From: Thioalbus denitrificans
GTDB taxonomy: Bacteria > Pseudomonadota > Gammaproteobacteria > DSM-26407
Assembly: GCF_003337735.1 (NCBI RefSeq)
Contig: NZ_QPJY01000010.1
Coordinates: 1 to 64,000 of the forward strand
Direction: 5' to 3'
Length of the DNA: 64,000 bases
A model generated the notes under the pieces. It was not told where the DNA came from. It searched no databases and saw only the letters and a program-made list of their open reading frames with translations. Shown here one piece after another: positions 33,931 through 50,781 of this stretch (its first letter is position 1; each line of letters starts with the position of its first letter). A program made the position numbers and the translations under genes.

Positions 33931-35268
<1,338 letters not shown>

Positions 35269-35298
35269 GGTTATGAATCGGTTGATGGATTGGTTGAT

Positions 35299-35464
35299 GG
35301 ACAAGGGATAAAGGATAAAGGTTCTGGATCCAGGAATCAGGGCTCAGACGCAAAGCCCGAAGCGCGTTGGGCCGGATTCATCCGGCCGGCCAGGGCGACA
35401 AGGCCGGCGCCGTTGTGCGGATGAATCCGCACCTGATGTCTACAATCCTTGTCCCTTGTCCAAA
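35299..35464. repeat. Inverted-arm element, 'acaagggataaagg' family
   Basis: Left arm ggacaagggataaaggataa (35299-35318, plus agg) and right arm aatccttgtcccttgtcc (35444-35461) are inverted, about 120 bp apart. Two small hairpins between them share ggattcatcc / ggatgaatcc. It fills the gap between kinase and regulator genes. Confidence 0.65.
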
Positions 35465-35470
35465 TCCCGT

Positions 35471-37399
35471 CTATTCGGAACCGTCCGCGTCCGGCGGCAG
35501 CCGGATCGTCGCCACGGCGCCGCCGCCGGCGCGGTTCTCCAGGGTCAGGGTGCCGCCGTGGTGCTCCACGATGCCGAGCCCGATGGAGAGCCCCAGACCG
35601 GTGCCCTGCCCCACCGGCTTGGTGGTGTAGAAGGGGTCGAAGAGGCGGTCCCGGTCCGTCTCCGGCAGCCCCGGTCCGCGATCGGCCACGCTGATTACCA
35701 GCGCCCCGTCCCCGGCCCGCGCCGCCACCTCCACCATGCTCTCCGCGGGACTCGCCTGTACCGCGTTGAGCAGCAGGTTCACCAGCACCTGCTGCAGCTG
35801 GCCGCGATCCCCCACCAGTTCGAGGCCGGGCGCCGACCCGGCCTGCAGCCGCACCCGGGCACGGGCAGCCACCTGGCGGGCCAGGTCGAGGGTCTCCTCC
35901 AGCCACGGCCCCACCTCGAAGCGCTCGCGCCGCGGCGGCACCTGGCGGGCGAAGTTGAGGATGTCGCGCACGATGCGCGAGGCGCGCAGGGTCTCCTCAC
36001 GGAGATCGCGCAGGTCCTGGCGTGCCCGCTCGGCCCCCTCCGGCAGGCCGCGCTCGGCCAGCTTGGCCAGCTGCAGGATATTGTTCAGGGGATTGTTGAT
36101 CTCGTGGCCGATGCCGGCGGCCAGCTGTCCGACGCTGGCGAGCTTGGCGCTCTGCGTGGCCATCCGCTCGGCATGGTCCCGCTCCTGGCGCGCCCGCTCC
36201 AGGGTGTCGGCCATGTAGTTGAAGGACTCCTCCAGCTCCCGCACCTCGTCCATCCCCCCCACCGCGACCCGCCGCCGGCGGTCGCCGTCGGCGAACGCCT
36301 TGAGCCCGGCGGCGAGGCGCACCACCGGCGCGGCCACCGTGCGCGCCGCGGCGGTGCTGAACAGCAGCGCCAGCAGCACCGCCAGCCCGGCGAAGGCCCA
36401 GATGGCCAGGCGGATGCCGGCGAAGGGCGCCCCCAGGGCCTGCAGGTCCACTCCCATGGCCACCACCCAGCTCACCAGCTGATCCGGGTAGGGCAGGAAC
36501 TCGGTGTAGTAGACCGCGCGGCCGGCGCCGCGGTCCTCCACCAGGCCGAAGGGCCGTTCCGCCACCGCCCGCGACAGTCGCCCGCCGAGCACGCCGTCCA
36601 TGTGCTCCGCGGGGGTCTTGGGATCGGAGAAGCGGCTCCCGCCGGCGTCGTCGAACAGCAGCACCCCGTCCCGGGCCGGGTCGTCGGGGTTGAGCTCGGC
36701 GATGAGCAGCTGGCCCTGGTAGACCCGCGGGGCGAAGTCGAGAATGTGGTCGATGTGCTCGCCGCGGATGTTCACCGCCAGGTAGCCCAGCCGCTCCCCC
36801 TCCGCCTCCAGCGGCAGGATGTAGTCCAGCAGCGGGAGACTCTGCCCCGCCTCCCGGCGCGCGATCCGGCTCTGGGGCAGCAGCGTCACCGTGACCTCCC
36901 CCGCCGGCAGCGCCTCCAGCCCGGCCACGAACTCGGCGTTGTTGAGCTCCACTTCGGCGTAGGGATAGCTCTCGATGCCGTCGAAGACGTTGGGGCTGCG
37001 GCGGCGGTTCTCCACCTTGACCAGGGTGTTGGCGCTGCGGTCCAGCACCCGGATGATGGCGAAGCCGGGAACGATGCCCTGGAAGGTGCCCAGGAACCCG
37101 GCCAGCCGCGCCGTGCGCTCGAAGAAGTCGGGGTGCAGGTCGCCGCGGGCGGCGGTGGCCATCACCGGCAGGTAGTCCTGCAGGGCCGGAACGGTGGCCA
37201 GCCCGCGCAGGATCTCCTGGTCGCTCTGCAGCCGGCGGCTGATCTCGCCCACCACGGTGTTGAGGGTGGCGCCGATGTCCTCGGCCACCCCCTCGCGGTA
37301 GACCACCTCGCTGTAGCGGGTCGCACCGAGGGTGAGTGCCGTCAGCGGCACCACGGTGGCGAGCAGGATCCAGAGCAGCAGATGGGTCTTCAGGCGCAC
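35471..37399 (-). CDS. Membrane sensor histidine kinase
   Basis: A 642-residue kinase. TM1 is about 7-26; a large periplasmic dCache-like sensor follows (30-325). TM2 is about 328-352. HAMP is about 350-405 (LKAFADGDRRRRVAVGGMDEV), and HisKA has the H-box GIGHEINNPLNNILQL. HATPase has NAVQA (N box), DRGPGLPE and GTGLGLSIG. It probably phosphorylates the adjacent sigma54 activator. The ligand is unknown; a sulfur compound is a guess from the soxYZ context. Confidence 0.92.
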   Translation of the reverse strand: MRLKTHLLLWILLATVVPLTALTLGATRYSEVVYREGVAEDIGATLNTVVGEISRRLQSDQEILRGLATVPALQDYLPVMATAARGDLHPDFFERTARLAGFLGTFQGIVPGFAIIRVLDRSANTLVKVENRRRSPNVFDGIESYPYAEVELNNAEFVAGLEALPAGEVTVTLLPQSRIARREAGQSLPLLDYILPLEAEGERLGYLAVNIRGEHIDHILDFAPRVYQGQLLIAELNPDDPARDGVLLFDDAGGSRFSDPKTPAEHMDGVLGGRLSRAVAERPFGLVEDRGAGRAVYYTEFLPYPDQLVSWVVAMGVDLQALGAPFAGIRLAIWAFAGLAVLLALLFSTAAARTVAAPVVRLAAGLKAFADGDRRRRVAVGGMDEVRELEESFNYMADTLERARQERDHAERMATQSAKLASVGQLAAGIGHEINNPLNNILQLAKLAERGLPEGAERARQDLRDLREETLRASRIVRDILNFARQVPPRRERFEVGPWLEETLDLARQVAARARVRLQAGSAPGLELVGDRGQLQQVLVNLLLNAVQASPAESMVEVAARAGDGALVISVADRGPGLPETDRDRLFDPFYTTKPVGQGTGLGLSIGLGIVEHHGGTLTLENRAGGGAVATIRLPPDADGSE

Positions 37400-37492: not shown

Positions 37493-38812
37493 TCAGCGCC
37501 CGATGCGGTAGTGGGTGTCGAGGTACTCCAGCAGGGTGGTGCGCTCGGCCTCGGTGAGCGGCACCACGTGGCGGATGCCCATGTAGGTGTCCATCAGCCC
37601 CAGGCTCGGGCGCCAGTCGCTCTTGCGCGCCAGCAGGATGCGCTTGGCGTCGTGGCAGGCGAGGCAGCGCTCGCGCAGCAGCCGCGCGCCCTCGCTCTCG
37701 GCCGCCGCCAGCTTGCCGCTGGCGAGCGCCGCGGCGCGCTCGGCGTCCACCTCCGCCTTGCGGCGGATGATGCTGGCGAAGCGCAGGTAGCAGACCTCGC
37801 CCCGCTCCACCCGCTCCACCCCGCGCCGGGCGTCCACGTTCACCAGCTGCTCGGTGAACACGCCCGCGGGGCTCAGGCGGTTGATGTTGTAATTGTAGGT
37901 CTCGGAGAAGAGCACTCCCCCGGCGCGGCTGAGCGCCATGGCGAAGGGTCCGCCGGTGTCGCCCGGCAGGGGATACTCCCGGAGCGTGCCCTCCGCGTCG
38001 AGGCGGCCGATGAGGTTGCGGGTGTTGTCGATGAACCAGAGCACCCCCTCCTCGTCCAGGGCCATCTGCTGGACGAAGGACTCGGCGGGAAGGGGGAAGC
38101 GGGTGAGGGTGCCGTCGGGATCGAGGCGCTCGATGCCCTGGCGGCAGCGGTCCGAGAACCAGAGCCGGCCGGCGGGATCGGGGGTGATGTTCATGGGGCA
38201 GCTGCCGGCGCGGCGCAGCAGCTCGCGGCGGGTCCCGTCGCGGCCGAGATGGACGATGCGCCCGGCCGCCTGGTCCATGCCGCCCTCCTCCACGGCCGGC
38301 TCCAGGACGGTGAGCCACACCCCGCCGTCGGCGGCCGGCGCCATGGCGGTGGGCCAGCCCCGCTCGATGATGTAGTTGCGGATGGCGCCGTCCGGGTCGA
38401 GGCGCCCCACCCGTGCCGGGTCGTTGCCCTCCAGGAACCAGACGCCCTGCTCGCCGTCCACCCAGATGCGCCAGGGGTGGGGATGGTGGCCCGCCAGCGG
38501 GTACTCGGTGATGCGCCCGTCGGGCGCGAGGCGGCCGAGCTTGCCGCCGTACATCTCCACGAACCAGAGGTTGCCCGCCCCGTCCAGGGCGAGGTCCGCC
38601 GGCTCCGCCGCCGCCGTGGGCAGGGGGTAGGCGGTCACCGTGCCGTCGGGGGCGAGGCGCGAGACGGCGTTGTTGTCCCCCTCGGTGAACCAGACCCCGC
38701 CCTCGGCGTCCTCCACGAAGGCGTAGGAGCCGAAGGGCCGGCACGCCTCGGCGTTCGCCGCCGCCAGCAGCAGGGCCCCCAGCAGCAGCCATCCCGCAAA
38801 TCTTCCGTTCAT
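37493..38812 (-). CDS. Vgb/NHL-type beta-propeller fused to a c-type cytochrome domain
   Basis: A 439-residue exported protein: signal peptide (GWLLLGALLLAAANAEA), then about seven propeller blades with repeating GVWF/NLWFVE/GRLDPDG motifs as in virginiamycin B lyase-like proteins. A helical linker follows, then a C-terminal heme site ERCLACHD (Cys383, Cys386, His387) with Met candidates downstream (GLMDTYMG). The heme places it in the periplasm with a redox role. Its substrate is unknown, and streptogramin lyase activity is unlikely. AGGAGG precedes the ATG. It is 93 bp upstream of the sensor kinase on the same strand. Confidence 0.85.
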   Translation of the reverse strand: MNGRFAGWLLLGALLLAAANAEACRPFGSYAFVEDAEGGVWFTEGDNNAVSRLAPDGTVTAYPLPTAAAEPADLALDGAGNLWFVEMYGGKLGRLAPDGRITEYPLAGHHPHPWRIWVDGEQGVWFLEGNDPARVGRLDPDGAIRNYIIERGWPTAMAPAADGGVWLTVLEPAVEEGGMDQAAGRIVHLGRDGTRRELLRRAGSCPMNITPDPAGRLWFSDRCRQGIERLDPDGTLTRFPLPAESFVQQMALDEEGVLWFIDNTRNLIGRLDAEGTLREYPLPGDTGGPFAMALSRAGGVLFSETYNYNINRLSPAGVFTEQLVNVDARRGVERVERGEVCYLRFASIIRRKAEVDAERAAALASGKLAAAESEGARLLRERCLACHDAKRILLARKSDWRPSLGLMDTYMGIRHVVPLTEAERTTLLEYLDTHYRIGR

Positions 38813-39062: not shown

Positions 39063-40955
39063 TCAGAAGTTCCAGTTGAGCTCCGCCCGCAGCAGACGCC
39101 CCTCGTCGCGCCAGAAGAAGCCGCTGCGGTAGCGGCGGTCGAAGAGGTTGTCGCCGGCCAGGGTCAGCTCGAAGTCCCCGAGGCGCCCCACCAGGGTGGC
39201 GTCGAGGGTGGCGTAGGCCTCCTTGCGCCAGTCGTGGCCCGCCGCGTCGGTCCCGGTGTTGGCCTCGTCGGTCCAGCTGGCCGCGACAAAGCGGGCCAGC
39301 AGCCGTCCCGACCAGCGCCCGGCGCCGCTCCATTCCAGCCCCAGGTTGAGCTTGTGGCGGGGCATGTCCGGCAGTTCGTTGCCCACGTAGGCGGGGTGCG
39401 CCGCGTCACGGGTGATGCGGGTGCGGTTGAAGGTGTAATTGAGCGTGGCGTCCCAACCCGGGCCCAGCGCCCGGCGCGCCTCCAGCTCCAGGCCGTTGGA
39501 CTCGGCCGCGCCGATGTTCTGGTACTGGCGCACCACCGGGGTGCCGTAGTCCACGATGAGGGGACCGATCTTGTCGCGCCAGCGGGTGTGGAAGGCGGTC
39601 GCCTTGAGGGTCGCGCCGGCGGCGGTCTCGTGGGCCAGGGTGAGATCGACCGTCAGCGAGTGCTGCGGCGAGAGCTCCGGGTTGGGCAGGAACCAGCTCG
39701 CCTCGTTCAGCTCCGTGTAGTAGAGCTGGCCGGGGGTGGGGGGCAGGAAGCCGGTGCCCACGGAGGCGCCCAGGCCGGTGCGCGGGGAGAGGCGCCAGTC
39801 GAGGGCGGCCTTGCCGTTGAGCGCCCGGAGGTTGACCGCGTCGCCGCTGAAGGCGGCCGGCTCGGAGGCGGCGTTGTAGACCTCGATGCCGTGGTAGCGG
39901 TAACGATCGTGGCGCAGTCCCAGGGTGAGCCGCACCGGCTCCGCCAGCGCGCCCTCCCAGCCGGCGGCCAGGGCCAGATTGTCGGTGGTGGCGCGCAGCC
40001 GGAAGGACTCGCTGCCGCCGGGCTCGTCGAGAATGCGATCCTCGCCCCGCTCGCGGCTCGCCGAGAGCGTGGCGGTCAGCGTGCCCCGGGCCAGATCGAG
40101 ATCCGCCCCCAGCTCCCCCTCGCCGGTCCGGCTGTCGGTGAAGAAGCGCAGCGCCGGCTCCAGTCCCGCCCCGGCGAGACCGGTGCCGGCATCCTTCAGC
40201 GCCTCGTCGGCATAATCGCGCCAGCCGAGGCGCCCGTCGATGCGCAGTCCCGGATGCGGCTCCCAGCGCCCGCTGGCCCGCAGCGCCGTCTCGCGATCGT
40301 CCCACCACCAGTGGGGACGCCCCAGGTTGGCCAGGTTGTTGCGGTGCTTGAGGTTCAGCTCCAGCGCCGCGCCCGCGCCGCGCCAGCCGGCGGTGGCGTC
40401 GATCAGGGTCTTCTCGTAGCGCTCCTCCTCCACCGTCACGTTGTAGGCGTAGGGGGAGTCGGTCACCCGCCGGAAGCCGTCCACCAGCCGGTACTCGGCC
40501 AGGCCGCTGAAGGAGAGGGCCCCCGCGGCGCGGCTGCCGGCCAGGCGCCCGAAGCGGCTGCCCGAGGAATCGACCCCGGCGGTGAGGCTGCGGCGGCCCT
40601 CGGCGCCCGCCCGCCGGGTGGTCACCACCACCGCGCCGCCCATGGCGTCGGCGCCGAAGCGGGCGGAGGCCGCCCCGCGCCGGATCTCCACCCGCTCCAC
40701 CTGCTCCGGGCGCACCTGGCCCATCTCCTCCACGGTGACCGTGAAGCCGTCCAGCACGAACACCACCCCGCGCACCCCGCGCATGGTGACGTTGCCGCCG
40801 GTCACGTCGAGCCCCACCCGCGAGCGCAGCAGGGTGACGAGATCCGCCGGCCGCTCGCGGGCGATCTCCGCGGCGGTGATGACCGTCACCGCCCCGTTCT
40901 CCGCCACCGCCAGCGGCGCGGCCAGCAGCAGCCACAACCCCAGCCAGCGTCTCAC
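39063..40955 (-). CDS. TonB-dependent outer-membrane receptor (RiPP cluster)
   Basis: A 630-residue TonB-dependent receptor: signal peptide (WLGLWLLLAAPLAVA), plug domain (about 25-125, RGVRGVVFVLDGFTV, RIEIRRGAASARFGADAMGG-like), and a beta-barrel ending in the aromatic LRAELNWNF. There is no STN signalling domain. GTG at 40955 overlaps the stop of the ABC permease gene (GTGA), so it is the last gene of the cluster and translationally coupled to the exporter. Likely substrate is the mature cluster peptide or its metal complex (inference). Confidence 0.88.
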   Translation of the reverse strand: MRRWLGLWLLLAAPLAVAENGAVTVITAAEIARERPADLVTLLRSRVGLDVTGGNVTMRGVRGVVFVLDGFTVTVEEMGQVRPEQVERVEIRRGAASARFGADAMGGAVVVTTRRAGAEGRRSLTAGVDSSGSRFGRLAGSRAAGALSFSGLAEYRLVDGFRRVTDSPYAYNVTVEEERYEKTLIDATAGWRGAGAALELNLKHRNNLANLGRPHWWWDDRETALRASGRWEPHPGLRIDGRLGWRDYADEALKDAGTGLAGAGLEPALRFFTDSRTGEGELGADLDLARGTLTATLSASRERGEDRILDEPGGSESFRLRATTDNLALAAGWEGALAEPVRLTLGLRHDRYRYHGIEVYNAASEPAAFSGDAVNLRALNGKAALDWRLSPRTGLGASVGTGFLPPTPGQLYYTELNEASWFLPNPELSPQHSLTVDLTLAHETAAGATLKATAFHTRWRDKIGPLIVDYGTPVVRQYQNIGAAESNGLELEARRALGPGWDATLNYTFNRTRITRDAAHPAYVGNELPDMPRHKLNLGLEWSGAGRWSGRLLARFVAASWTDEANTGTDAAGHDWRKEAYATLDATLVGRLGDFELTLAGDNLFDRRYRSGFFWRDEGRLLRAELNWNF

Positions 40956-41713
40956 CAGAGGTAGTCCCCCAGGCGGCGGCGGAAGCTCCAGGCGGCGAGC
41001 GGCGCCAGCAGGACCACCGCCGCCGCCAGCCCCAGCAGGATGGCGCCCGTGGCCAGGTGCGGCTGGGACGGGTCGTAGGCGCCGCGCAGCCCCTCGGCGA
41101 GGTAGGTGGTGGGAAGCAGCAGGGCCAGCTGGCTGAAGGGAGGGCCGAGCATGGCGTGGGAGTAGAAAGTGCAGCCGAAGAAGGTCATGGGCATGAGCAG
41201 GAAGGAGAACAGCTCCTGGCCGCGGTCGGGGGTGGCCGGCAGCAGCAGCACCACCAGGCTGAGCAGGGAGAAGAACGCGGAGCCGCCCACCGCCAGGGCC
41301 AGGGGCAGCAGCAGCCCCTCCGGACGCAGCCCCAGGATGGCCCACACCAGCAACGCCACGATGGTGGCGCTCAGGGTGCCGTAGAGGACGCCGCTGACCA
41401 CCTTGGCCACCAGCAGCTGGCGCAGGGAGACAGGCGCCAGCAGCCACCCCTCCAGGGTGCGGAAGTAGTAGCCGGAGACCAGGGTGCCGCCCACGGCGCC
41501 GAAGGGAGCGGTCATGATGGCGATGGCCACGATCCCCGGTCCCATCACCGCCGCGTAGCCGGGACCGTTGCCGCCGGCGAGCATGCCGCCCACCACGTAG
41601 CCGAAGACGTAGAGGTAGACCGCCGGCTGCACCACCAGCCGCGCCAGGGTCAGGCGCAGGGAACCGAGGTCCGCCAGCAGGTGGCGATGGAGCAGGGCCA
41701 GGGTGAAGTGCAT
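40952..41713 (-). CDS. ABC-2 type exporter permease (RiPP cluster)
   Basis: A 253-residue inner-membrane protein with six hydrophobic segments and the ABC-2 signature region (LLPTTYLAEGLRGAYDPSQP). It follows its ATPase by 2 bp and overlaps the TonB receptor start. NodJ/DrrB-type permeases like this export lipids, drugs or peptides. Here the cluster peptide is the likely cargo. Confidence 0.9.
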   Translation of the reverse strand: MHFTLALLHRHLLADLGSLRLTLARLVVQPAVYLYVFGYVVGGMLAGGNGPGYAAVMGPGIVAIAIMTAPFGAVGGTLVSGYYFRTLEGWLLAPVSLRQLLVAKVVSGVLYGTLSATIVALLVWAILGLRPEGLLLPLALAVGGSAFFSLLSLVVLLLPATPDRGQELFSFLLMPMTFFGCTFYSHAMLGPPFSQLALLLPTTYLAEGLRGAYDPSQPHLATGAILLGLAAAVVLLAPLAAWSFRRRLGDYLW

Positions 41714-41715
41714 GA

Positions 41716-42441
41716 TCAGCCCTCCCCCACGGCGCGGCGGAAGGCCGCCTCCACCACCCGGTCGGTGCGCACCCCGGCCGGCCGCGCCACTTCCTGCAGC
41801 CGCCCGTCATGGAGCACCGCGGTGCGATCGCAGAGACGTTCCACCTCGTCGAGATCGTGGCTGGAGAGGAACACCGTGCCGCCTCCGGCGCGGAATTCGG
41901 TGATGGCCCGCCACACCCGCGTGCGCACCGCCGGGTCGAGGCCGCTGGTGGGCTCGTCCAGCACCAGCAGCCGTGGCGCGGTGAGGAACGCCTTGGCCAG
42001 CATCACCTTGCGCCGGGTGCCGCCCGAGAGCTGCATGATGCGCGCGTCGGCCTTTGCTGCCAGTTCCAGGGTCTCCAGCCACCGCTCCACCCGTGGGGCG
42101 AAATCCCGCCGCGGCAGGCCGGCGTAGCGGCAGTGGAACTCGAGGTTGCGGCGCACGGTGAGCTCGTTGTCGAGGTTGTTCTCCTGGGGCACCACGCCGA
42201 GCCGGCGCTTCACCGCCACCGCCTCGCGGCGCGGATCGCGGCCCAGCACCCGCACCCGCCCGGCCGTGGGGCGCAGCAGGGTGGTGATCACCTTGATGAG
42301 GGTGCTCTTGCCGGCGCCGTTGACCCCCAGCAGGCCGAAGATCTCCCCCTCCGCCACCGTGAGGCTCACCCCGTCCAGGGCGCGCAGCCCGCCCGGGTAG
42401 TCGCGCACCAGCCCCTCGATGTCGATGGCCGCCACCGTCAC
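41716..42441 (-). CDS. ABC-2 exporter ATPase (RiPP cluster)
   Basis: A DrrA/NodI-type ATPase of about 241 residues: Walker A GVNGAGKST, Q-loop VVPQENNL, signature LSGGTRRK (Thr in place of the usual Glu/Gln), Walker B LLVLDEPTSGLDP and H-switch SSHD. GTG at 42441 overlaps the preceding stop (GTGA). GTG at 42435 with GGAGGGG 5 bp upstream is an alternative. It pairs with the permease at 40952-41713. Confidence 0.92.
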   Translation of the reverse strand: MTVAAIDIEGLVRDYPGGLRALDGVSLTVAEGEIFGLLGVNGAGKSTLIKVITTLLRPTAGRVRVLGRDPRREAVAVKRRLGVVPQENNLDNELTVRRNLEFHCRYAGLPRRDFAPRVERWLETLELAAKADARIMQLSGGTRRKVMLAKAFLTAPRLLVLDEPTSGLDPAVRTRVWRAITEFRAGGGTVFLSSHDLDEVERLCDRTAVLHDGRLQEVARPAGVRTDRVVEAAFRRAVGEG

Positions 42442-43586
42442 CCCTCCACCAGGGCGCACAGGGGCGCCGGCAGCTCCCCGACCGGCGCCACCTCATCCAG
42501 CAGCGCCTGCAGCCGGGCCGTGGTCTCGCGCTTGAAGCGGCAGAAGGCGCCGTCGGCGCCCGCGATGCCGCCACCGCCCGCCGCCGCCACCGCCGGGCAC
42601 TCGCCGCCGCAAAGATGGCTCGCCTCGCAGGCCCGGCAGGCGGGGCGGGCCGCCACGGTGTTGGCCGCCAGGCGCGCCTGCACCCGGGCGAATTCGGGTC
42701 CCGGAAAGTCCCCATCGTGGACGCAGCCCATGCGGAACGCCGCGTTGCCCACGAAATGGTCGCAGGGGTAGACGGCGCCGTCGGCGGCCACCGCCACCAC
42801 CGCCTCGCCGGCGGCGCAGGGGCGCTCGCGCACCGTGCCCTGCACGCGATGGGCCAGCAGCGGGTAGAGGGCCTCGCCTCCCAGGGGGACATGACCGGTG
42901 AGGGCGCGGGCCAGGGCCTCGCGGTGGAGGGTGTCGAAACCCGCCACCAGGGCGGCCAGGGCCGGTTCCGGCCAGGGGGTGGCGCCGAAGTCGGGCACCA
43001 GGCGCAGGGAGACCGGCCCCAGGCCCGCCAGGTGTCCGGCGCTATCGGCCAGCCGTGGGGCGCTCTCCGGGGTCACCGTGGCGCGCAGCCCGAAGGGGAC
43101 GCCGGCGGCCCGCAGCCGCTCCAGCCCGGCGCACACCCGGGCGTGGACGCTCCCCCGGCCGCGGCGAAAGCGCCGGGCACGGTCGGTGACCGCCGCCTCG
43201 CCGTCCAGGCTCACCGCCAGGAAGTCCACGTGGCGGGTGACGAACTCCAGCGCCCGCCCCTCCAGCAGGGTGCCGTTGGTGGTCAGGGCGAAACGGACCT
43301 CCACCCCGGCCGTCTCCCCGAGGCGCCGCCCCAGCAGCACCGCCGCCTCCAGCAGCGGCAGGTTGAGCAGCGGCTCGCCGCCGAAGAAGGAGAGGGTGAG
43401 GCGCGGACCGGCCAGGGGCAGCAGCCGCTCCAGGGCGCGCTTCAGGGTCGTTGCCGCCATGCGTTGGGCGGGAGCGCCATAGCTGCCGCCGTCCGCATAG
43501 CAGTAGCCGCAGCGCAGGTTGCAGGCCTGGGCCACCAGCAGGGTGACGTTGGCGAGGCGGGCGGGCCTGGTGGCGGTGCCGGACAC
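42438..43586 (-). CDS. Radical SAM/SPASM peptide-modifying enzyme 1
   Basis: A 382-residue radical SAM protein without an N-terminal extension. The [4Fe-4S]-SAM motif is CNLRCGYCY (Cys22, 26, 29). FFGGEPLLN is the GGE SAM-amine motif, and SLDGEAAVTDR is typical of SPASM enzymes. The C-terminal SPASM domain has the cysteine series C-AAGE...VYPC and CRACEASHLCGGEC plus a last Cys, enough for two auxiliary clusters. GTG start with GGGGAGGG 6 bp upstream, directly after the second enzyme gene. Role: probably installs thioether or other crosslinks in the 46-residue peptide. Confidence 0.9.
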   Translation of the reverse strand: MSGTATRPARLANVTLLVAQACNLRCGYCYADGGSYGAPAQRMAATTLKRALERLLPLAGPRLTLSFFGGEPLLNLPLLEAAVLLGRRLGETAGVEVRFALTTNGTLLEGRALEFVTRHVDFLAVSLDGEAAVTDRARRFRRGRGSVHARVCAGLERLRAAGVPFGLRATVTPESAPRLADSAGHLAGLGPVSLRLVPDFGATPWPEPALAALVAGFDTLHREALARALTGHVPLGGEALYPLLAHRVQGTVRERPCAAGEAVVAVAADGAVYPCDHFVGNAAFRMGCVHDGDFPGPEFARVQARLAANTVAARPACRACEASHLCGGECPAVAAAGGGGIAGADGAFCRFKRETTARLQALLDEVAPVGELPAPLCALVEG

Positions 43587-43588
43587 GT

Positions 43589-44908
43589 TCAGCCCTCCCC
43601 GGCGATCAGTGACTTGAGCCGGGTCCGGCGCCCCGGGTCCCGCAGGATGGCGGCAAGGCCCCGGAGCACGTGCTCCAGCCGCCGGCGCTCCAGGTCGCAG
43701 TGGCGGGGATCGGGCTGCGCCGGGTCGCCGTGGAGGAAGTGACCGTGGGCATAGCAGCCGCCGCCGCAGAGGTAGCGGGCGAAGCAGCCGCGGCAGGGTT
43801 CGGCCGCGTCCACCCCCAGCACGGCGAAACGCGCCGCCACCCCGCCGAACTCGGCCGACGGCGCGGCCTCTTCCACGTGGCCCATGCGGAAGGCACCCAC
43901 GCCGGCCAGGCCGTGGCAGGCATAGAGGCTGCCGTCGGCGGCCACGGCGAGATCGCGCCCGGCGTGGCAGTGGCGGTGGACCCGCTGGCGGCGCAGGATG
44001 CGCCCCATCAGCCCCAGCGCCTCGCCGTGCTGCAGCGGCGCCTCCAGGGCCCGCTCCGGGTCGCAGTGGATGGCGAGGTAGTCGGCCACGTAGCGCTCGT
44101 GCGCCGCATCGCTCAGGCGTGCCGGATGGCCCGGCGGGGCGAAGACCGGCGTCAGCCCCACCGCGTCGGCGCCGAGGGCGTTGAGGTAGGCGGCGGTTTC
44201 CCCGTAGCGTTCCGCGCCGGCCACGGTGAGGGTCCCCTTCACCGTGACCCGCGGCCCCTTGAGCGTGCGCAGGGCGCGCAGGGCAGCCACCGCCCGCCGG
44301 TGGCTGCCGGTGCCACGGCGGCTGCGGCGGTGGCGGTCGTGCACCGCCGGCGGACCGTCGAGGCTGACGGTGACGGTGGCGAAACGCGCCAGCAGCGCCA
44401 GCGCCCTGGCGTCCACCAGGGTGCCGTTGGTGGTCATGTGGAAGGCGATGCGGAAGCCGCGCTCGGCGGCCAGCCGCTCGCCGAAGGCCACCGTCCGCTC
44501 CACCACCGCGCGGTTGAGCAGCGGCTCGCCGCCGTAGAAGCTCACCGCGTAGTGCTCGCCCGGCTCGGTGAAGAAGCGGCGCAGGGCCGCCTCCGCCACT
44601 GCCGGGCTCATGCGCTGCACACTCCCCGCCGCCCTGCCGCCGTCGTTGTAGCAGTAGCTGCAGGCGAGGTTGCAGTCCTGGGCCACGTACAGGCACAGGC
44701 TGGTGGGTGCCGCGGGCAGCGGCGGCGCCGGGCGCAGCCGCTCGTGACGTTCCGCCTCCGCCGCCAGCAGCGCCGCGCCCCCGGGGCCGAGATCGGAGAC
44801 GCTCAACGGCGACCGCAGCCCGGGCGGGAGCCGGTAGAGGGAGAAGGTGGCGGGGAAGAAGAGGATGTCCTCCCCCTCACCGCGGATGATGTGCGTCTGA
44901 CTCAGCAC
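43589..44908 (-). CDS. Radical SAM/SPASM peptide-modifying enzyme 2
   Basis: A 439-residue radical SAM/SPASM enzyme. A 70-residue N-terminal extension (IIRGEGEDILFFPATFSLYR) resembles the one in enzyme 3 and may bind the precursor leader. The cluster motif is CNLACSYCY (Cys79, 83, 86); YGGEPLLN and SLDGPPAVHDR follow. SPASM cysteines are HCHAGRD...YAC and CRGCFARYLCGGGC with a final Cys. GTG at 44908 has GGAGG 6 bp upstream; the gene overlaps enzyme 3 by 32 bp, so the two are coupled. Confidence 0.9.
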   Translation of the reverse strand: MLSQTHIIRGEGEDILFFPATFSLYRLPPGLRSPLSVSDLGPGGAALLAAEAERHERLRPAPPLPAAPTSLCLYVAQDCNLACSYCYNDGGRAAGSVQRMSPAVAEAALRRFFTEPGEHYAVSFYGGEPLLNRAVVERTVAFGERLAAERGFRIAFHMTTNGTLVDARALALLARFATVTVSLDGPPAVHDRHRRSRRGTGSHRRAVAALRALRTLKGPRVTVKGTLTVAGAERYGETAAYLNALGADAVGLTPVFAPPGHPARLSDAAHERYVADYLAIHCDPERALEAPLQHGEALGLMGRILRRQRVHRHCHAGRDLAVAADGSLYACHGLAGVGAFRMGHVEEAAPSAEFGGVAARFAVLGVDAAEPCRGCFARYLCGGGCYAHGHFLHGDPAQPDPRHCDLERRRLEHVLRGLAAILRDPGRRTRLKSLIAGEG

Positions 44909-46346
44909 CGCTCGCCTCCGGCCAGGTGGTGGTTCCGTAGCGGTGGGAGATGGCCCCCGCCAGCCGCTCCTTCAGGGCGTCGCGCCGGGCCGGGTCGGCC
45001 ATCACGGCGGCCAGCTCCGGCAACAGCGCCTCCACCACCGTCCTGATGTAGAGGCAGTGACGCTCCACGGGCGCGGCCAGGTCGCCGTGCTGCGACCAGG
45101 CATGCTTCACGCAGGCGCCGCCGCAGAGGTAGCGGGCCCAGCAGTCGCGGCAGGCGGGCCGATCGTCCACGGTCAGGTCGATGAAGCGCTGGCGCAGCTG
45201 CTGGTACCGCGGCCTCCGGGTGAGCTCCGGGTCGGCCACGCTGCCCATGCGGAAGGACTCCTCCCCCACGAAGCGGTGGCAGGGGTAGACGTCGCCCTCG
45301 GCGGTCACCGCCAGCAGGTTGCTGCCGGCGTTGCAGTGGTAGAGGGCGTGGCTGCGGGAGATGAGGTAGAACAGGATGTAGAAGGGGTATTCGAAGGCCA
45401 CCGCCTGGTCGCCCTCCAGGAAGCTCTTCAGTCCCTTGCGGTTGACCTCCACGATCTGGGCGAGGAATTCGCGGTACTGGGCGTCGTCCACGTGCAGGGG
45501 GTGCCCGGGGGGCACGTCCACGTCCACCAGGCCGATGCCCCCGGAGCCGAAGGCGTCCAGGTGGTCGAATATTTCCTCCACCCGGTCGTAGCTGCGGCTG
45601 GTGACGATGCTGCGGAAGGCCCAGTTGAAGCGCCCGTCTCCGGTGAGGCGGCGGATGTTGCGCTCGGCGGCGGCGTGGACGCTGTGGCCGGACTTGCTCA
45701 GGCGCTGGGCGTCGTTGATCTCCGGCGGGCCGTCGAGGCTGAAGGTGACGTTGTCGATGTGGTCGCGGAAGAACTCGCGGATCTTCTCGTTGTAGATGGT
45801 GCCGTTGGTGACAATGCCCAGCGACACGTCGGCGCGGCCCCGCTCCCGGTGCTCGCCGCAGAGCTCGGCGGTGCGGCGCATGAGGGGGAAGTTCATCAGC
45901 GGCTCGCCGCCGAAGAAGGTGAGGAAGTGCTTGCCGTCGCGCTCGCCGTAGAAGGTGGCGAAGGTCTGCTCCAGGGTCTCCTCGCTCATGTTGCAGCGGT
46001 TGCCGTACTCCCCCTCGTCACCGTAACAGTAGCTGCAGCGCAGGTTGCAGTCCTGGCAGACGAACAGGTAGAGGCCGGCCACCTTGTCGGTGATGTCCGC
46101 CGGTGCGCGCAGGGGCTTGGCCGGCGGGGCGCGGCGGATGTACTCGGCGATGAAGCGTCCGGCCGCGGCCAGCCGCTCCCGCTCCGCTTCGTCCGCCGGC
46201 TCGATGCCGGCCTCCCGCCGCGCCAGCACCTTGCCGGTGCCGGCGTCGATGGCGAACACCGCCACCGGGAGGGTGAGAAAGAGGTACCAGCGGCCCTCGT
46301 GTTCGAAAGCGTGGAAATCCCCGGCGCGGGGCAGTGTCTCTTGCAT
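44877..46346 (-). CDS. Radical SAM/SPASM peptide-modifying enzyme 3
   Basis: A 489-residue radical SAM/SPASM enzyme, first enzyme after the precursor. The N-terminal 90 residues (FEHEGRWYLFLTLPVAVFAI) look like a peptide-recognition extension. Cluster motif: CNLRCSYCY (Cys100, 104, 107), with an additional Cys97 and Cys118 nearby. FFGGEPLMN and SLDGPPEINDAQR follow, and the SPASM domain has HCNAGSN...VYPC and CRDCWARYLCGGAC. The YCYGDEGEYG stretch recalls maturases of selenobiotic/geopeptide-type systems; that comparison is from memory. It begins 80 bp after the precursor stop. Confidence 0.9.
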   Translation of the reverse strand: MQETLPRAGDFHAFEHEGRWYLFLTLPVAVFAIDAGTGKVLARREAGIEPADEAERERLAAAGRFIAEYIRRAPPAKPLRAPADITDKVAGLYLFVCQDCNLRCSYCYGDEGEYGNRCNMSEETLEQTFATFYGERDGKHFLTFFGGEPLMNFPLMRRTAELCGEHRERGRADVSLGIVTNGTIYNEKIREFFRDHIDNVTFSLDGPPEINDAQRLSKSGHSVHAAAERNIRRLTGDGRFNWAFRSIVTSRSYDRVEEIFDHLDAFGSGGIGLVDVDVPPGHPLHVDDAQYREFLAQIVEVNRKGLKSFLEGDQAVAFEYPFYILFYLISRSHALYHCNAGSNLLAVTAEGDVYPCHRFVGEESFRMGSVADPELTRRPRYQQLRQRFIDLTVDDRPACRDCWARYLCGGACVKHAWSQHGDLAAPVERHCLYIRTVVEALLPELAAVMADPARRDALKERLAGAISHRYGTTTWPEASGAESDAHHPR

Positions 46347-46426
46347 GGTCGATTCCCTTCGTTGCAGTCGGCTCGCCCGGCCACGGGGCGCAGACTCTAA
46401 CGGATTGTCAGTTCAGAAACGGTGGA

Positions 46427-46567
46427 TCAGAAGCGGGGGCCGCAGCCGCACTTCATGCCACCCTGGGTGCCGCAGCAGGCACAGGCGGTCATCTCGTGGA
46501 ACTCATCCTCGAATCCTTCCAGGGGCTCGAACTCGATCTCGACGATCTTCATTTCGCTCAGTTCCAT
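46427..46567 (-). CDS. Candidate RiPP precursor peptide, cysteine-rich
   Basis: A 46-residue peptide. Residues 1-26 form an acidic leader (MKIVEIEFEPLEGFEDEFHE). The core is TACACCGTQGGMKCGCGPRF with cysteines 29, 31, 32, 40 and 42. Five cysteines in a CxCC-x7-CxC layout next to three radical SAM/SPASM genes is the classic sign of a modified peptide. AAGGAG lies 6 bp before ATG 46567, strong support for translation; the longer open frame to 46651 has no ribosome site. The core has no close family I can name. Thioether formation and metal binding are inferences. Confidence 0.75.
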   Translation of the reverse strand: MELSEMKIVEIEFEPLEGFEDEFHEMTACACCGTQGGMKCGCGPRF

Positions 46568-46665
46568 AGTGTTCTCCTTAACGGTTGGGTGCCCTGTGGC
46601 CGGGCGAAAACGGTCGGTGCCGCCGCCGGGGCGGCGCCTCGAATCGGTCAATCACGGATCAGCCT

Positions 46666-48957
46666 TCAGAACCGGGCCGCCAACTCCAGCCACCAGCTGC
46701 GGCCGTCCAGGCGCTCGTACCAGAAGCCGTAGCCGGTCCCGTCGAAGACGTTGTCGACGGCGAGCGAGGCGACCCACTCGGGCCCGGCGCCGACCCGGAA
46801 GCTCCGCGACAGCTTCACGTCGGCCAGGAAGTGGCTGTCGGCCCGGGAGTACCCGGCGTTGCTGTCCTCGAAATAGCGCTCGCCCACGTAGCGGCCGATG
46901 ACCTGGGCGGTGAGCAGTTCCGGGTTGTCGTAGGCGAGCCCGATGTTGAACTTGTGCCTGGGCGTGTTCGCGGTCCGGTTGCCCTCCAGGGCGGGATCGG
47001 AGGGGTTCTCGGTGATCTCCGAGTCGGTGTAGGTGTAGTTGAAGAAGGGCTGCCAGTACCGGCCGAGGCGGGTGTTCAACTCCAGCTCGAAACCGAGCAC
47101 CCGCGTCTCCCCGAGGTTCTGGAACTGGGACTTGGTCCCCGTGCCGGTCTCCACTTCACCCCGGGCGATCTTGTCCTTGAAGGTGGTGTGGTAGAGCGCG
47201 GCGCTGCCGTCGAGGAAGCCGGCCAGCGACTCGAACTTGAGTCCCGTCTCGTAGGAGACGGCGGTCTCGGGCTCGAGGTCCGGGTTGTCGGCCCACATGC
47301 CGCCGCTGCGGTACTTGAGGCTGTTGGGGGCGGGGATGTAGGCGGTACCCGCGGAGGCATACAGGGCGAGCCCGTCGCGGAGCCGATAGCTGAGGCCCGC
47401 ACGGGGCGTGAAGACCGCATCGTCCGCGTCGGGCTTGGCGGTTCCGTAGGCCTCGTAGTCGTAGTGCTCGTAGATGTCATAGCGGCCGCCGAGGGTCAGG
47501 GTGAGGCGGTCGAAGCGGTGCTCATCCTGAGCGAAGAGGCCATAGGTCCTGCTCCTGTGGCTCATCTCGCCCCACAGCTCGCCGTCGGGCCCGTACTCGC
47601 TGCTCGACCAGCGGCCATCCCACCAGACGCCGCCCAGGGTCAGGGTGTTGCCCTCTAGCGGGTGGAAATCGAGCTGGAGCTCGGCGCTGAAGGATTCCTC
47701 GTCCTCCCGGTCGTGGTAGAACTCCTCCAGCGTGCCCAGGTACTCGTAGTAGTCGTAGGTTCGCCTGGGCGCGGAGACATCGGAGTAGGCCAGCTTCGCC
47801 TTGAGCAGCTGCCCGCCGGCGAAGTGGTGGTTCAGCGCGGCGTCGAGCAGGGTGCCCTCCTGCTCGATCCGGTAGTTGGGGTGGCCTCCCAGCACCGCGC
47901 CCTCGTTCTCGAAATGGTGCACCCCCAGGGCGAGATCCGTGGCCTCGCCGGGCCACCAGGTCAGCCGGGCACTGACCTTCCGCTCGCGGGAGTCCCGGCC
48001 GTCCAGATCCCGGTAGTCGTAGTCGAACCAGTCGCGCCAGGGGGGCGGCGTCCCGGTGAGCTGAACGAAGCCGTCCGACTCATGCGCGCTGGCGGCCAGG
48101 AACAGGTCGAAATCCCCGGCCGTTCCGCCGGCCGACAGGGACAGCCCCCGGGCGGCGTGGGAGCCCGCCCCCGCACTGATGCGGGCGAAGGGTTCCCCGG
48201 CGCCCCGCTTGGTGATGACGTTGATCACCCCGCCCATGGCGCTCGGGCCGTAGAGCACCGAACCGGGGCCGCGGACCACCTCGATGCGATCGATGCTCTC
48301 CGGGCTCACCGCGTACCACAGGTAGCGACGGGTGATGGCCAGCGGCTCCACGGGCATGCCGTTGAGCAGCGACTGGGTGGTCGTCCCCGCGAAGCTCTGC
48401 CCCAGGCCGCGCAGGACGGGAATGCCAGCGGCCGCCGAGCCGGACATGTAGGTGAGATCCACCCCCGGCAGGCTGCGCAGCAGATCCTCGGGCTTGGCCG
48501 CGTGTTGCCGCGCTATCTCCTCGGCGGTGACCACCGACACGCTGGCGGGCACATCGATGACCTCGCGTTCCGTGCGGGTGGCCGTCACGGTGATCAGCCG
48601 CTGGGCGCCGGGAGCCGCCCCGGGGGCAGCCGCCGCGCTCTCCAGCCCCGGCCCCACCGCATAGCTCCCGGCGGCGGTGGCGCGGAATCCCAGGCCGGTG
48701 CCCGCCAGCAGGCGCCGCAGGGCCTGCTCCGGGGTGTAGCGTCCCTCCAGCCCCGGCGTCTCCAGCCCCGCCACCGCCTCGGCCGGGAACAGGATCTGGA
48801 TCCCCGCCTGGGCGGCCAGTGACTGCAGGGCGCTGCCGAGCGGCTGCGGGCCGATGCGCAAGGCCTCGCCATCGGCGGCCAGGGCCACGACCGGCTGCAG
48901 CATCCACAGGCAGAGCGCCAACAGCACACCCGCTGCCGTCCTCATTCTTTTTCTCAT
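46666..48957 (-). CDS. FecA-type TonB-dependent receptor with STN signalling domain
   Basis: A 763-residue outer-membrane receptor. After the signal peptide comes an STN domain (about 40-105, IGPQPLGSALQSLAAQAG and YTPEQALRRLLAGTGLGF) that signals to FecR-type proteins. Next are a TonB-box region (RLITVTATRTEREV), a plug (RIEVVRGPGSVLYGPSAMGG) and a barrel ending WWLELAARF. ATG 48957 has GAGGG 5 bp upstream. It is divergent from fecI/fecR-like genes and 98 bp upstream of the precursor on the same strand, so it may be the first gene of the peptide operon. Confidence 0.93.
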   Translation of the reverse strand: MRKRMRTAAGVLLALCLWMLQPVVALAADGEALRIGPQPLGSALQSLAAQAGIQILFPAEAVAGLETPGLEGRYTPEQALRRLLAGTGLGFRATAAGSYAVGPGLESAAAAPGAAPGAQRLITVTATRTEREVIDVPASVSVVTAEEIARQHAAKPEDLLRSLPGVDLTYMSGSAAAGIPVLRGLGQSFAGTTTQSLLNGMPVEPLAITRRYLWYAVSPESIDRIEVVRGPGSVLYGPSAMGGVINVITKRGAGEPFARISAGAGSHAARGLSLSAGGTAGDFDLFLAASAHESDGFVQLTGTPPPWRDWFDYDYRDLDGRDSRERKVSARLTWWPGEATDLALGVHHFENEGAVLGGHPNYRIEQEGTLLDAALNHHFAGGQLLKAKLAYSDVSAPRRTYDYYEYLGTLEEFYHDREDEESFSAELQLDFHPLEGNTLTLGGVWWDGRWSSSEYGPDGELWGEMSHRSRTYGLFAQDEHRFDRLTLTLGGRYDIYEHYDYEAYGTAKPDADDAVFTPRAGLSYRLRDGLALYASAGTAYIPAPNSLKYRSGGMWADNPDLEPETAVSYETGLKFESLAGFLDGSAALYHTTFKDKIARGEVETGTGTKSQFQNLGETRVLGFELELNTRLGRYWQPFFNYTYTDSEITENPSDPALEGNRTANTPRHKFNIGLAYDNPELLTAQVIGRYVGERYFEDSNAGYSRADSHFLADVKLSRSFRVGAGPEWVASLAVDNVFDGTGYGFWYERLDGRSWWLELAARF

Positions 48958-49242
48958 GGTTTCCCTCGCGTCAATCACAGGCCGAACTGTCCGGTCTCAA
49001 ACACGTACGACGAATAGGGCTATCAACCCCTGACCTGATCGCGGGAAATTTTTTTCGGGCTCGGGGTTATGCCCCGGCGACTGAGTTATTTGGCGCAGCG
49101 ACGCACGGCCGGCGCCGGCCGGCGGCGGTTTCATCGCGCATTTTTTCTGGCACCGGCCTTGCATCAGTCATGGGCCGGTGCGGACACCGCGACGCCGGGA
49201 AGCGCGGGTTGTCCGTGGCAAAGGAGCTGACCAGACGCCGCC
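48958..49242. promoter_or_regulatory. Divergent control region, STN receptor / fecI-like gene
   Basis: 285 bp between divergent genes. A candidate ECF-type -10 (minus strand attcgtcgta, 49006-49015) with ggttgat about 16 bp further upstream could drive the receptor-peptide operon. An A/T-rich gggaaatttttttcggg at 49042-49058 is the most AT-rich point. No clear Fur box. Both assignments are tentative. Confidence 0.35.
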
Positions 49243-49761
49243 GTGAACCAGGACCGCAACCACACCCAGCGACTGCTGGCGCTCTATCGCGAGGCGCAGC
49301 GGGAGCTGCACGCCTTCCTCGCCGCCCGGTTGCACAACCGGGAGCAGGCGGCGGATGTGGCCCAGGAGGCCTTCGCCCAGGTGCTGGCGGCGGGTGCGGA
49401 GGGAAGCGTGGCCGATCTGCGCGGCTACCTGTTCCGCACCGCGGCAAACCTCAGCGTGGACGAGCTGCGGCGCCGGGAGGTGCGCAACCGCCATGCCGCC
49501 ACCGCCGCCACGCTCGAGAACCCGGGCGGCCCGGACCCGGCCCGCACCCTCGCCGGCCGGGAACAGCTGGCGCTGCTCCGGCAGGCCATCGACGAACTGC
49601 CCCCACGTTGCCGCGAGGTGTTCCTGCTGCACCGCTTCAGGGAGCTGAGCTACCCGGAAATCGCCGCCCAGCTGGGGATCTCCCGCAACATGGTCGAGAA
49701 GCACATCGTGCGGGCACTCGCCCACTGCCGGGCCCGGCTGGAGGGCGGTGGCAGCGGGTGA
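49243..49761 (+). CDS. FecI-like ECF sigma factor
   Basis: A 172-residue ECF sigma factor: region 2 (LHAFLAARLHNREQAADVAQ, then EAFAQVLA) binds the -10, and region 4 (IDELPPRCREVFLLHRFREL followed by SYPEIAAQLGISRNMVEKHI) binds the -35. The region 4 wording is typical of the iron-starvation FecI group. GTG start at 49243 with AGGAG upstream. The fecR-like gene follows by 33 bp. Likely targets are the divergent STN receptor and peptide genes. Confidence 0.92.
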   Translation: MNQDRNHTQRLLALYREAQRELHAFLAARLHNREQAADVAQEAFAQVLAAGAEGSVADLRGYLFRTAANLSVDELRRREVRNRHAATAATLENPGGPDPARTLAGREQLALLRQAIDELPPRCREVFLLHRFRELSYPEIAAQLGISRNMVEKHIVRALAHCRARLEGGGSG

Positions 49762-49794
49762 ATCCCATGGGCCATCCGGGCTAGACTCCTCTCC

Positions 49795-50781
49795 ATGCCC
49801 TGCACACCCGCCCCCCATACCCGAAGCGACCCTGGCGCCGCGGCAATCCGCTGGTTCGCCCGCCTGCGTGCCCCGGATCTGCGCCCGGCGGAGCGGGAAG
49901 CGTTCAGAAGCTGGCTCGCGGCGGCGCCCGAGCACGGGGAGGCATACCGCTCCGTGGAAGCGATGTGGCGGGACCTGGGCGCGCTGGAAGCGCAGCACCC
50001 GGCCCCCGCGGCCCGGCCCGGCGTGCCTGACCGGGTCCGGCGCAGACGCTGGATGGCCGCCCTCGCGGCGGGGCTCGCCGCGGCGGGGCTCGCCGGCGGC
50101 TGGCTGCTGCCCGGCCTGATGGGTGATCCCGCCCGGCTGCACACGGCCCGGGGGGCGCAGGAGGTGGTGCGGCTGGCCGACGCCACGGTGGTTCACCTCA
50201 ACACCGCCACCGAGCTGCGCCTCGACTACACCCCGGCCCGGCGGCGCCTGGTCCTGGAACAGGGCGAGATCTTCCTCGAGGTGGGACGGGATCCGCGCCC
50301 CCTGGTGGTGGAGGCCGCCGGCGGCCGGATCCGGGACATCGGCACCCGCTTCGGCGTGCGCATCGGCGCCGGCGGCACTACGGTCACCGTCACCGAGGGC
50401 GCCGTCGCGGTCCGCCTGGCCGGCGCGGAGGCGAGCGCCGGCGCCGGGGAACGGCTCGACTACTCCGCCGACGGGGGGCTGGGAACGCCCCGCCCGGCCG
50501 CCCTGGAGCGGGCCACGGCCTGGCTGCGGGGGCTGCTCCTGTTCGAGGCCACCCCCCTGGCGGAGGTGGTGGAGGAGCTGAACCGCTATCGCGCCGCCCC
50601 GGTGCGGCTGGGGGATCCCGCCCTCGCCGGGCTGCGGGTCAGCGGAAGATTCTCCATCGGGGATTCGGACGGGCTGCTGCGGACCCTGGAGGCAGTCCTG
50701 CCGCTGACGGTCGTCCAGCGTGCCGACGGCTCCGTGGCGCTGCTGGCGCGGGCCGCCCCCGGCAGCGGCGACGGGACGTGA
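49795..50781 (+). CDS. FecR-like anti-sigma/sigma regulator
   Basis: A 328-residue FecR family protein. The N-terminal cytoplasmic DUF4880 region (AIRWFARLRAPDLRPAEREA) contacts the sigma factor. One membrane segment follows (about 86-110, WMAALAAGLAAAGLAGGWLL). The FecR domain is about 115-205 (DIGTRFGVRIG, VTVTEGAVAVRL). A C-terminal secretin/STN-like part (LLLFEATPLAEVVEELNRYR) completes it. It relays receptor occupancy across the inner membrane to the FecI-like factor. Confidence 0.92.
   Translation: MPCTPAPHTRSDPGAAAIRWFARLRAPDLRPAEREAFRSWLAAAPEHGEAYRSVEAMWRDLGALEAQHPAPAARPGVPDRVRRRRWMAALAAGLAAAGLAGGWLLPGLMGDPARLHTARGAQEVVRLADATVVHLNTATELRLDYTPARRRLVLEQGEIFLEVGRDPRPLVVEAAGGRIRDIGTRFGVRIGAGGTTVTVTEGAVAVRLAGAEASAGAGERLDYSADGGLGTPRPAALERATAWLRGLLLFEATPLAEVVEELNRYRAAPVRLGDPALAGLRVSGRFSIGDSDGLLRTLEAVLPLTVVQRADGSVALLARAAPGSGDGT

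Follow-up and report, generated by a model that had tools for sequence, protein, structure and literature searches.

A FecI/FecR relay and STN-domain receptor conserved beside a putative radical-SAM-modified, cysteine-rich ribosomal peptide in Thioalbus denitrificans

In the FecIRA and FpvA/PvdS systems, an STN-domain TonB-dependent receptor is combined with FecR and FecI, and a promoter precedes the receptor gene but not fecI; the ligand is ferric citrate or the siderophore pyoverdine, and Fur boxes exert control (PMC9249621, PMC2235872). MbnI, MbnR and MbnT lie upstream of mbnA in methanobactin operons (PMC3621798), and in Methylosinus the FecIR-linked receptor MbnT2 is induced by its ligand, an induction that needs MbnI2R2 and the signalling domain (PMC9601215). 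Isopeptidase-type lasso clusters, for example that of rubrinodin, also join a ribosomal peptide to a TonB receptor and FecI/FecR, together with a propeller-containing protein that acts on the peptide; the rubrinodin cluster has an ATP-binding cassette (ABC) transporter as well (PMC9266682). Here, we describe a cluster in a 64,000-nucleotide stretch of Thioalbus denitrificans DNA (contig NZ_QPJY01000010.1, positions 1 to 64,000; hereafter the window), in which genes for a FecI-like sigma factor and a FecR-like protein stand beside an STN-domain receptor, followed by a short peptide gene, three radical S-adenosylmethionine (SAM) genes (R1, R2, and R3), an ABC pair, a second TonB-dependent receptor, and a propeller/c-haem protein. 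On balance, we favor the view that this is a FecI-driven cell-surface-signalling operon for a radical-SAM-modified, Cys-rich ribosomal peptide, probably a metallophore.

The locus resembles group I clusters of methanobactin, which scavenges copper, in having FecI/FecR homologues upstream of an STN-type TonB receptor, a short Cys-containing precursor, modifying enzymes, and an exporter; some of those clusters have haem-protein partners, and M. trichosporium has a second TonB receptor (PMC3621798, PMC9601215). This likeness, including the position of MbnIRT upstream of the precursor, is one of layout and not of ancestry. The maturases here are three radical-SAM proteins and not MbnB/MbnC, and no MbnB or MbnC model was among the matches shown for the ten proteins scanned. 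Furthermore, the exporter is of the ABC and not the multidrug and toxic compound extrusion (MATE) type, the precursor is a different one, the second receptor lies inside the block and lacks STN, a propeller/c-haem protein is present and not MbnPH, and a covarying inverted repeat surrounds the precursor gene. The lasso clusters differ in their lasso chemistry, in an isopeptidase with a hydrolase domain, and in a sigma pair downstream of that isopeptidase (PMC9266682), whereas radical-SAM chemistry and a haem-linked propeller are predicted here. With FecIRA and FpvA/PvdS, the locus shares the STN receptor, FecR, FecI, and a promoter-like motif before the receptor but not before fecI; the Fur-box control of those systems is not evident here.

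A search with R1 in a species-level genome collection returned 57 loci. Eight of these records were at least 60% identical (L007 and L055, from one sister genome, and L008 to L013), and the remaining 49, at 33% identity or less, were left out before synteny was counted; one further member, G811/L070, came from additional searches. The nine loci compared were the window, L055, L008 to L013, and L070, which represent eight genomes besides the window and, with the window, seven independent lineages. In every one of them, the genes for FecI and FecR lie next to that for the STN receptor, after which come the peptide gene and R1. R2, R3, both ABC genes, and the propeller gene were present downstream in all eight sufficiently long loci, and the second receptor in seven of these, the exception being L010. 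The initial annotation had placed FecI and FecR divergent from the STN receptor, and the three genes do lie on opposite strands in the window; the same holds for five of the nine loci, while FecIR is co-directional with the receptor in L008, L009, L011, and L013. Genes outside the block vary between loci where these were scanned (endonuclease, ribonucleotide reductase, HipA, major facilitator superfamily transporter, and others), and FecIR is therefore taken as part of the conserved module. Since the order is kept in 9/9 clusters and the outside genes vary, the association of the trio with the peptide, judged from gene order, exceeds chance. Inversion of the peptide cassette at the DNA level was unsupported, the peptide gene having the same orientation in all nine loci.

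The cluster family is rare. Among 369 genomes of the class, two encode R1 at E ≤ 1e-70, namely that of the window and the sister genome. With the threshold set to E ≤ 1e-100, R1 was present in two of the 399 genomes sampled from the L013 order, in one of the four from the L013 family, and in one of the 20 from the L011 order. For the family to which L010, L012, and L070 belong, two overlapping samples of 249 and 199 genomes contained 2 and 3 genomes with R1, respectively, at E ≤ 1e-90. No plasmid relatives of R1 were found at E ≤ 1e-60, and none on viral contigs.

Compared with FecIRA-type signalling, the sigma factor is an extracytoplasmic function (ECF) factor of FecI type, with Pfam Sigma70_r2 and Sigma70_r4_2 and FecI-like models (top NCBIfam model PRK12527, 144 bits). 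The regulator carries DUF4880 and FecR domains, and its best NCBIfam model is FecR, at 150 bits, under the 385-bit cut-off of this equivalog model. An N-terminal STN domain was identified in all nine first receptors (E=1.7e-11 in the window). The first-receptor profile reaches the isolated signalling-domain structures of the pseudobactin receptor and HasR (2a02, 2m5j), and the nearest solved whole receptors include CirA, CntO, FoxA, and FecA.

An ECF-type promoter-like motif, [GA]T[CAG][AG]GG-N16-CGT[CT], was located 51 to 134 nt 5' of the ATG of the STN receptor in 9/9 loci and in none of 83 upstream regions of other cluster genes (fecI, 0/9; peptide, 0/9). The nine sequences contain 20 matches in 434,190 strand-bases, corresponding to 0.012 expected per region, and when the nine regions were dinucleotide-shuffled 1000 times, the motif appeared in 0.05 loci on average and in no more than 1/9. 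The PvdS iron-starvation box, TAAAT-N16-CGT, has the identical N16 spacing and the same element-N16-CGT design (PMC2235872). Two FecI types were distinguished, that of L010, L012, and L070 and that of the rest (identity, 31 to 39% between and 44 to 77% within types), and the −35 form follows them, being GT[AG]GGG in 3/3 loci of the first type and [GA]TCAGG in 6/6 of the other. The first type is confined to one taxonomic family, so this shift counts as at least one change and not three. The 64-kb window contains the [GA]TCAGG form once; because 0.44 occurrences are expected, the motif in the window alone would mean little. Across the loci, the motif is a candidate FecI-dependent promoter of the STN-receptor operon.

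In the window, 98 bp separate the receptor, whose stop codon ends at 46666, from the peptide ATG at 46567, as the initial annotation stated, and neither a sigma-70-like promoter nor a terminator-like site was found in the interval from receptor through peptide to R1. Genes of the block downstream of the peptide overlap or almost touch. The proposal that the receptor operon includes the peptide gains from the co-directional conserved block and from the sole conserved promoter-like motif, which precedes the STN receptor and not the peptide, and it is weakened by gaps of 161 to 327 bp in three loci. Most likely, the peptide gene belongs to a FecI-driven receptor operon, comparable to methanobactin mbnIRT-mbnA, with FecI presumably acting at the motif and transcription presumably crossing the 98-bp gap.

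The window peptide (MELSEMKIVEIEFEPLEGFEDEFHEMTACACCGTQGGMKCGCGPRF) occurs once in its genome, and neither it nor the L008 peptide matched a family in Pfam and NCBIfam searches. R1, R2, and R3 match nif11/PapB/SCIFF-type maturase models, every score lying under the curated cut-off; for R1, the scores were 227 bits with the nif11 model (cut-off, 518.7) and 205 bits with the PapB model (cut-off, 340). With the maturase cut-offs unreached and the precursor family unmatched, the cluster is not assigned to the PapB- or nif11-type radical-SAM ribosomally synthesized and post-translationally modified peptides (RiPPs). In quinohemoprotein amine dehydrogenase, the gamma subunit is modified by a radical-SAM enzyme, and propeller and c-haem subunits are present. 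By comparison with this enzyme, the peptide could, instead of diffusing, serve a periplasmic enzyme as a processed subunit or as a cofactor peptide, with the receptors importing the substrate of that enzyme. R1 does match the quinohemoprotein-maturase model along its length (178 bits; cut-off, 453), and the last gene of the block encodes a propeller linked to a c-haem segment that has weak similarity to the alpha subunit (E, 0.0024 to 0.0044). However, all such matches are far under curated cut-offs, the peptide contains no Trp, R1 scores higher with the nif11- and PapB-type models, and two TonB receptors plus FecIR better suit import of a product. We regard this alternative as very improbable. 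The propeller/c-haem protein, encoded by the last gene in 8/8 full-length loci, is possibly a cargo-release or peptide-opening protein; in its structure model (mean predicted local distance difference test score, 70.8; haem part, <50), only the propeller was confirmed.

For the FecI-driven operon, we propose a methanobactin-like loop, in which the mature peptide is a plausible inducer. The three radical-SAM enzymes would modify the 46-aa precursor, and the ABC pair would export it for loading outside the cell, with the peptide as ligand and a metal as the presumed cargo. Once the STN receptor binds the loaded peptide, its STN domain would be exposed to periplasmic FecR, which would let FecI guide RNA polymerase to the GTCAGG-N16-CGTC element located 51 nt ahead of the receptor gene. 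The transcript would then extend from the receptor and peptide genes across those for the enzymes, the exporter, and the second receptor to the propeller/haem gene, whose product may take part in cargo release. The peptide would thereby report its own successful return.

The initial annotation had also proposed that a receptor with STN senses and one without takes up the ligand. The split itself was borne out, STN being present in 9/9 first and 0/7 second receptors, including those of the window. The division of labor is not essential, because the L010 draft genome (an Accumulibacter member) lacks a second receptor genome-wide, a search with a second receptor as query returning only its own STN receptor. 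These results also bear on the possibility that FecI co-regulates receptor and peptide while the inducer is a related peptide of neighboring cells, the STN receptor acting as a scout and the second receptor importing the cell's own product. Such scouting would fit the second receptor in 7/8 loci long enough, STN receptors that are more variable than the peptides, and the inducible Methylosinus MbnT2, which serves a foreign methanobactin (PMC9601215). In L010, however, the STN receptor must suffice for any uptake, and we consider scouting quite unlikely.

Several points weigh against the self-inducing, FecI-driven operon. The motif was derived from the same regions in which it was counted, so that the controls bound chance and are no independent test, and its pattern was broadened by one letter to take in L070. 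Genome-wide, the strict motif occurred 11 times against 11 for the reversed control in eight genomes, 4 of the 11 being the promoters described here; a wide FecI regulon was rejected on this count. The analysis points to no particular metal: with the possible exception of L011, Fur-box matches ahead of fecI are weak. Methylosinus MbnT1 is constitutive although the fecIR homologues MbnI1R1 are adjacent (PMC9601215), so a FecIR-receptor layout alone is no proof of auto-induction. The gap between receptor and peptide reaches 161, 185, and 327 bp in L070, L009, and L011, leaving room for a separate promoter. The STN receptors diverge fast (mean identity, 43%), and receptor divergence follows that of the maturases poorly: the correlation of pairwise identities with R1 was 0.37 for the STN receptor and 0.15 for the second receptor, the latter distorted by the L010 row, since in this comparison the "TBDR2" rows of L010 and L055 held the STN receptor, no true second receptor being present there. 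The gaps and the divergence would also suit a trio whose ligand is foreign or unrelated (a xenosiderophore or other metal complex) and that neighbors the peptide by chance, with the peptide transcribed separately for another role such as competition; FecIRA trios are generally common near TonB receptors (PMC9249621). Against chance neighborhood stand the linkage in nine loci and seven lineages despite changes of orientation and FecI type, the conserved motif before the receptor with none before the peptide, and the variable genes past the block where scanned. We hold this reading to be unlikely.

As a separate observation, the STN receptors of the window and L011 (7168-9459) are 65% identical, the other pairs among the seven lineages being 32 to 55% identical, and their R1 enzymes are no closer than usual (59%). 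The pattern is a hint that lineages have exchanged receptors.

A covarying inverted repeat that brackets the peptide gene is a new observation that goes beyond the initial annotation. Its arms flank the peptide gene and form the sole inverted repeat of at least 12 bases in the window's receptor-peptide-R1 interval. The repeat was present in each of the eight loci first tested and scored above all 60 shuffles in six of these, L008 and L012 excepted; the equivalent arm pair was recovered in L013, L011, and L070, the last with one additional hairpin. Covariation was analyzed in eight distinct rows, L009 being left out since its arms equal those of L008. Pairing was found in 89.1% of 128 cells, and 10 of 16 pairs were changed on both sides (19 cells), as illustrated by the arms of L011 (GCCCAGCCACAGGG/CCCTGTGGCTGGGC) and L013 (GCCCGGTCGTTTCG/CGAAACGACCGGGC). 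The covariation score was 0.440, against 0.177 when shuffled (0/500 shuffles as high), and shifting the stem partner lowered pairing to 30 to 45%. In whole-interval folding, stem probability was ~1 in seven of eight loci, and L010 reached 0.78; three loci have internal mismatches, and the helix of L012 is shorter. By exact-word search, each arm core occurs once in the loci, at this place, except for a short 9-base core, of which GC-rich sequence contains further chance copies.

A simple block of translation is unlikely, given that the 5' arm is located upstream of the ribosome site; the 3' arm sits just before R1. In icaR of Staphylococcus aureus, the flanks of the coding sequence likewise pair over a long range, between the 5' and 3' untranslated regions; there, the pairing covers the Shine-Dalgarno site and represses (PMC3868564), whereas here the 5' arm is upstream of that site and the pairing falls within an operon. 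In L008, L009, and L013, a T-run past the stem gives a terminator-like structure with the whole peptide gene as loop; a general role as intrinsic terminator was rejected, the T-run being confined to these three loci. We read the stem as an mRNA device that would separate the peptide segment from the remainder of the operon; it is also possible that the arms are paired DNA operator sites. Tentatively, and as a possibility short of an even chance, we suggest that the locus is a radical-SAM metallophore operon that induces itself, and that its 13- to 18-bp long-range stem is cut or protected (for example, by ribonuclease III), so that a single FecI-driven transcript would yield peptide mRNA that is abundant and stable, along with modest levels of receptor and enzymes.

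Other candidate controls of fecIR were considered. Fur control as a common feature was unsupported: the best 19-mer matches reached 8 to 13 of 19 positions, and before fecI only L011 (13) and, marginally, L008 and L009 (12) exceeded shuffles. Directly beyond the propeller gene and on the same strand lie genes for an NtrC-type sigma-54 response regulator (33931-35304, −) and a HAMP histidine kinase (35471-37399, −). A sigma-54 consensus precedes fecI, exact in the window, with 15/16 positions in L055 and 14/16 in L011, and, taken with the kinase/regulator pair, it points to fecIR receiving two-component input in this genus. The site is present in 2/9 loci (plus the 14/16 match in L011), and the L008 regulator shows only 37% identity; sigma-54 control is given here as an observation. 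Finally, a palindrome, TGCGGCA-AC[AG]-TGCCGCA, lies ~52 to 54 bp before fecI, between fecI and the STN receptor, in L010, L012, and L070 (type A), and L013 has GTGCCAATTGGCAC before fecI; these elements are possibly operators of regulators. Coordinates of the features are collected in Table 1.

Table 1. Positions of the cluster's genes and sequence elements in the window
Feature	Position	Strand	Details	Basis or conservation
FecI-like ECF sigma factor	49243..49761	+	172 aa, GTG start uncertain	Pfam/NCBIfam; kept in 9/9 clusters
FecR-like anti-sigma/regulator	49795..50781	+	328 aa	Pfam FecR, DUF4880, weak FecR_C; 9/9 clusters
STN-domain TonB-dependent receptor	46666..48957	-	763 aa, putative sensor and transporter	Pfam STN, Plug, barrel
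Candidate FecI-dependent promoter of STN-receptor operon	49009..49034	-	GTCAGG-N16-CGTC, 51 nt 5' of ATG	Equivalent motif in 9/9 loci
Closing stem, 5' arm	46591..46607	-	Upstream of peptide ribosome site	
Precursor peptide gene	46427..46567	-	46 aa, Cys-rich	Conserved core ACC-x-TQGG-xx-CGCG
Closing stem, 3' arm	46373..46389	-	Between peptide stop and first radical-SAM gene	
Radical SAM/SPASM peptide maturase R1	44877..46346	-	489 aa	
Radical SAM maturase R2	43589..44806	-	Start uncertain	
Radical SAM maturase R3	42438..43535	-	Start possibly further upstream	
ABC exporter ATPase, DrrA/NodI-like	41716..42459	-		
ABC-2 type permease	40952..41713	-		
Second TonB-dependent receptor, no STN	39063..40955	-		
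Secreted Vgb-like beta-propeller with C-terminal CxxCH c-haem motif	37493..38812	-	Final conserved gene of block	
Exact sigma-54 (-24/-12) consensus	49148..49163	+	Upstream of FecI	Window and sister genome, weaker in L011

To our knowledge, no radical-SAM ribosomal-peptide class has previously been wired to a FecI/FecR/STN relay. The combination of radical SAM, TonB-dependent receptor, FecI, and RiPP was not found in literature searches of titles and abstract starts, and neither TonB nor FecI appears among the term matches in two papers about MNIO metallophores (PMC13097082, PMC12538549). If the FecI-driven operon is confirmed, its product would represent a third ribosomal-peptide class on such a relay, after methanobactin and the isopeptidase-type lasso peptides, and the first with radical-SAM chemistry. 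The conserved stem would offer a concrete, testable answer to how a precursor can be made in excess over its enzymes within one operon, and the cluster permits a direct test of whether FecI/FecR/STN relays sense the cell's own product.

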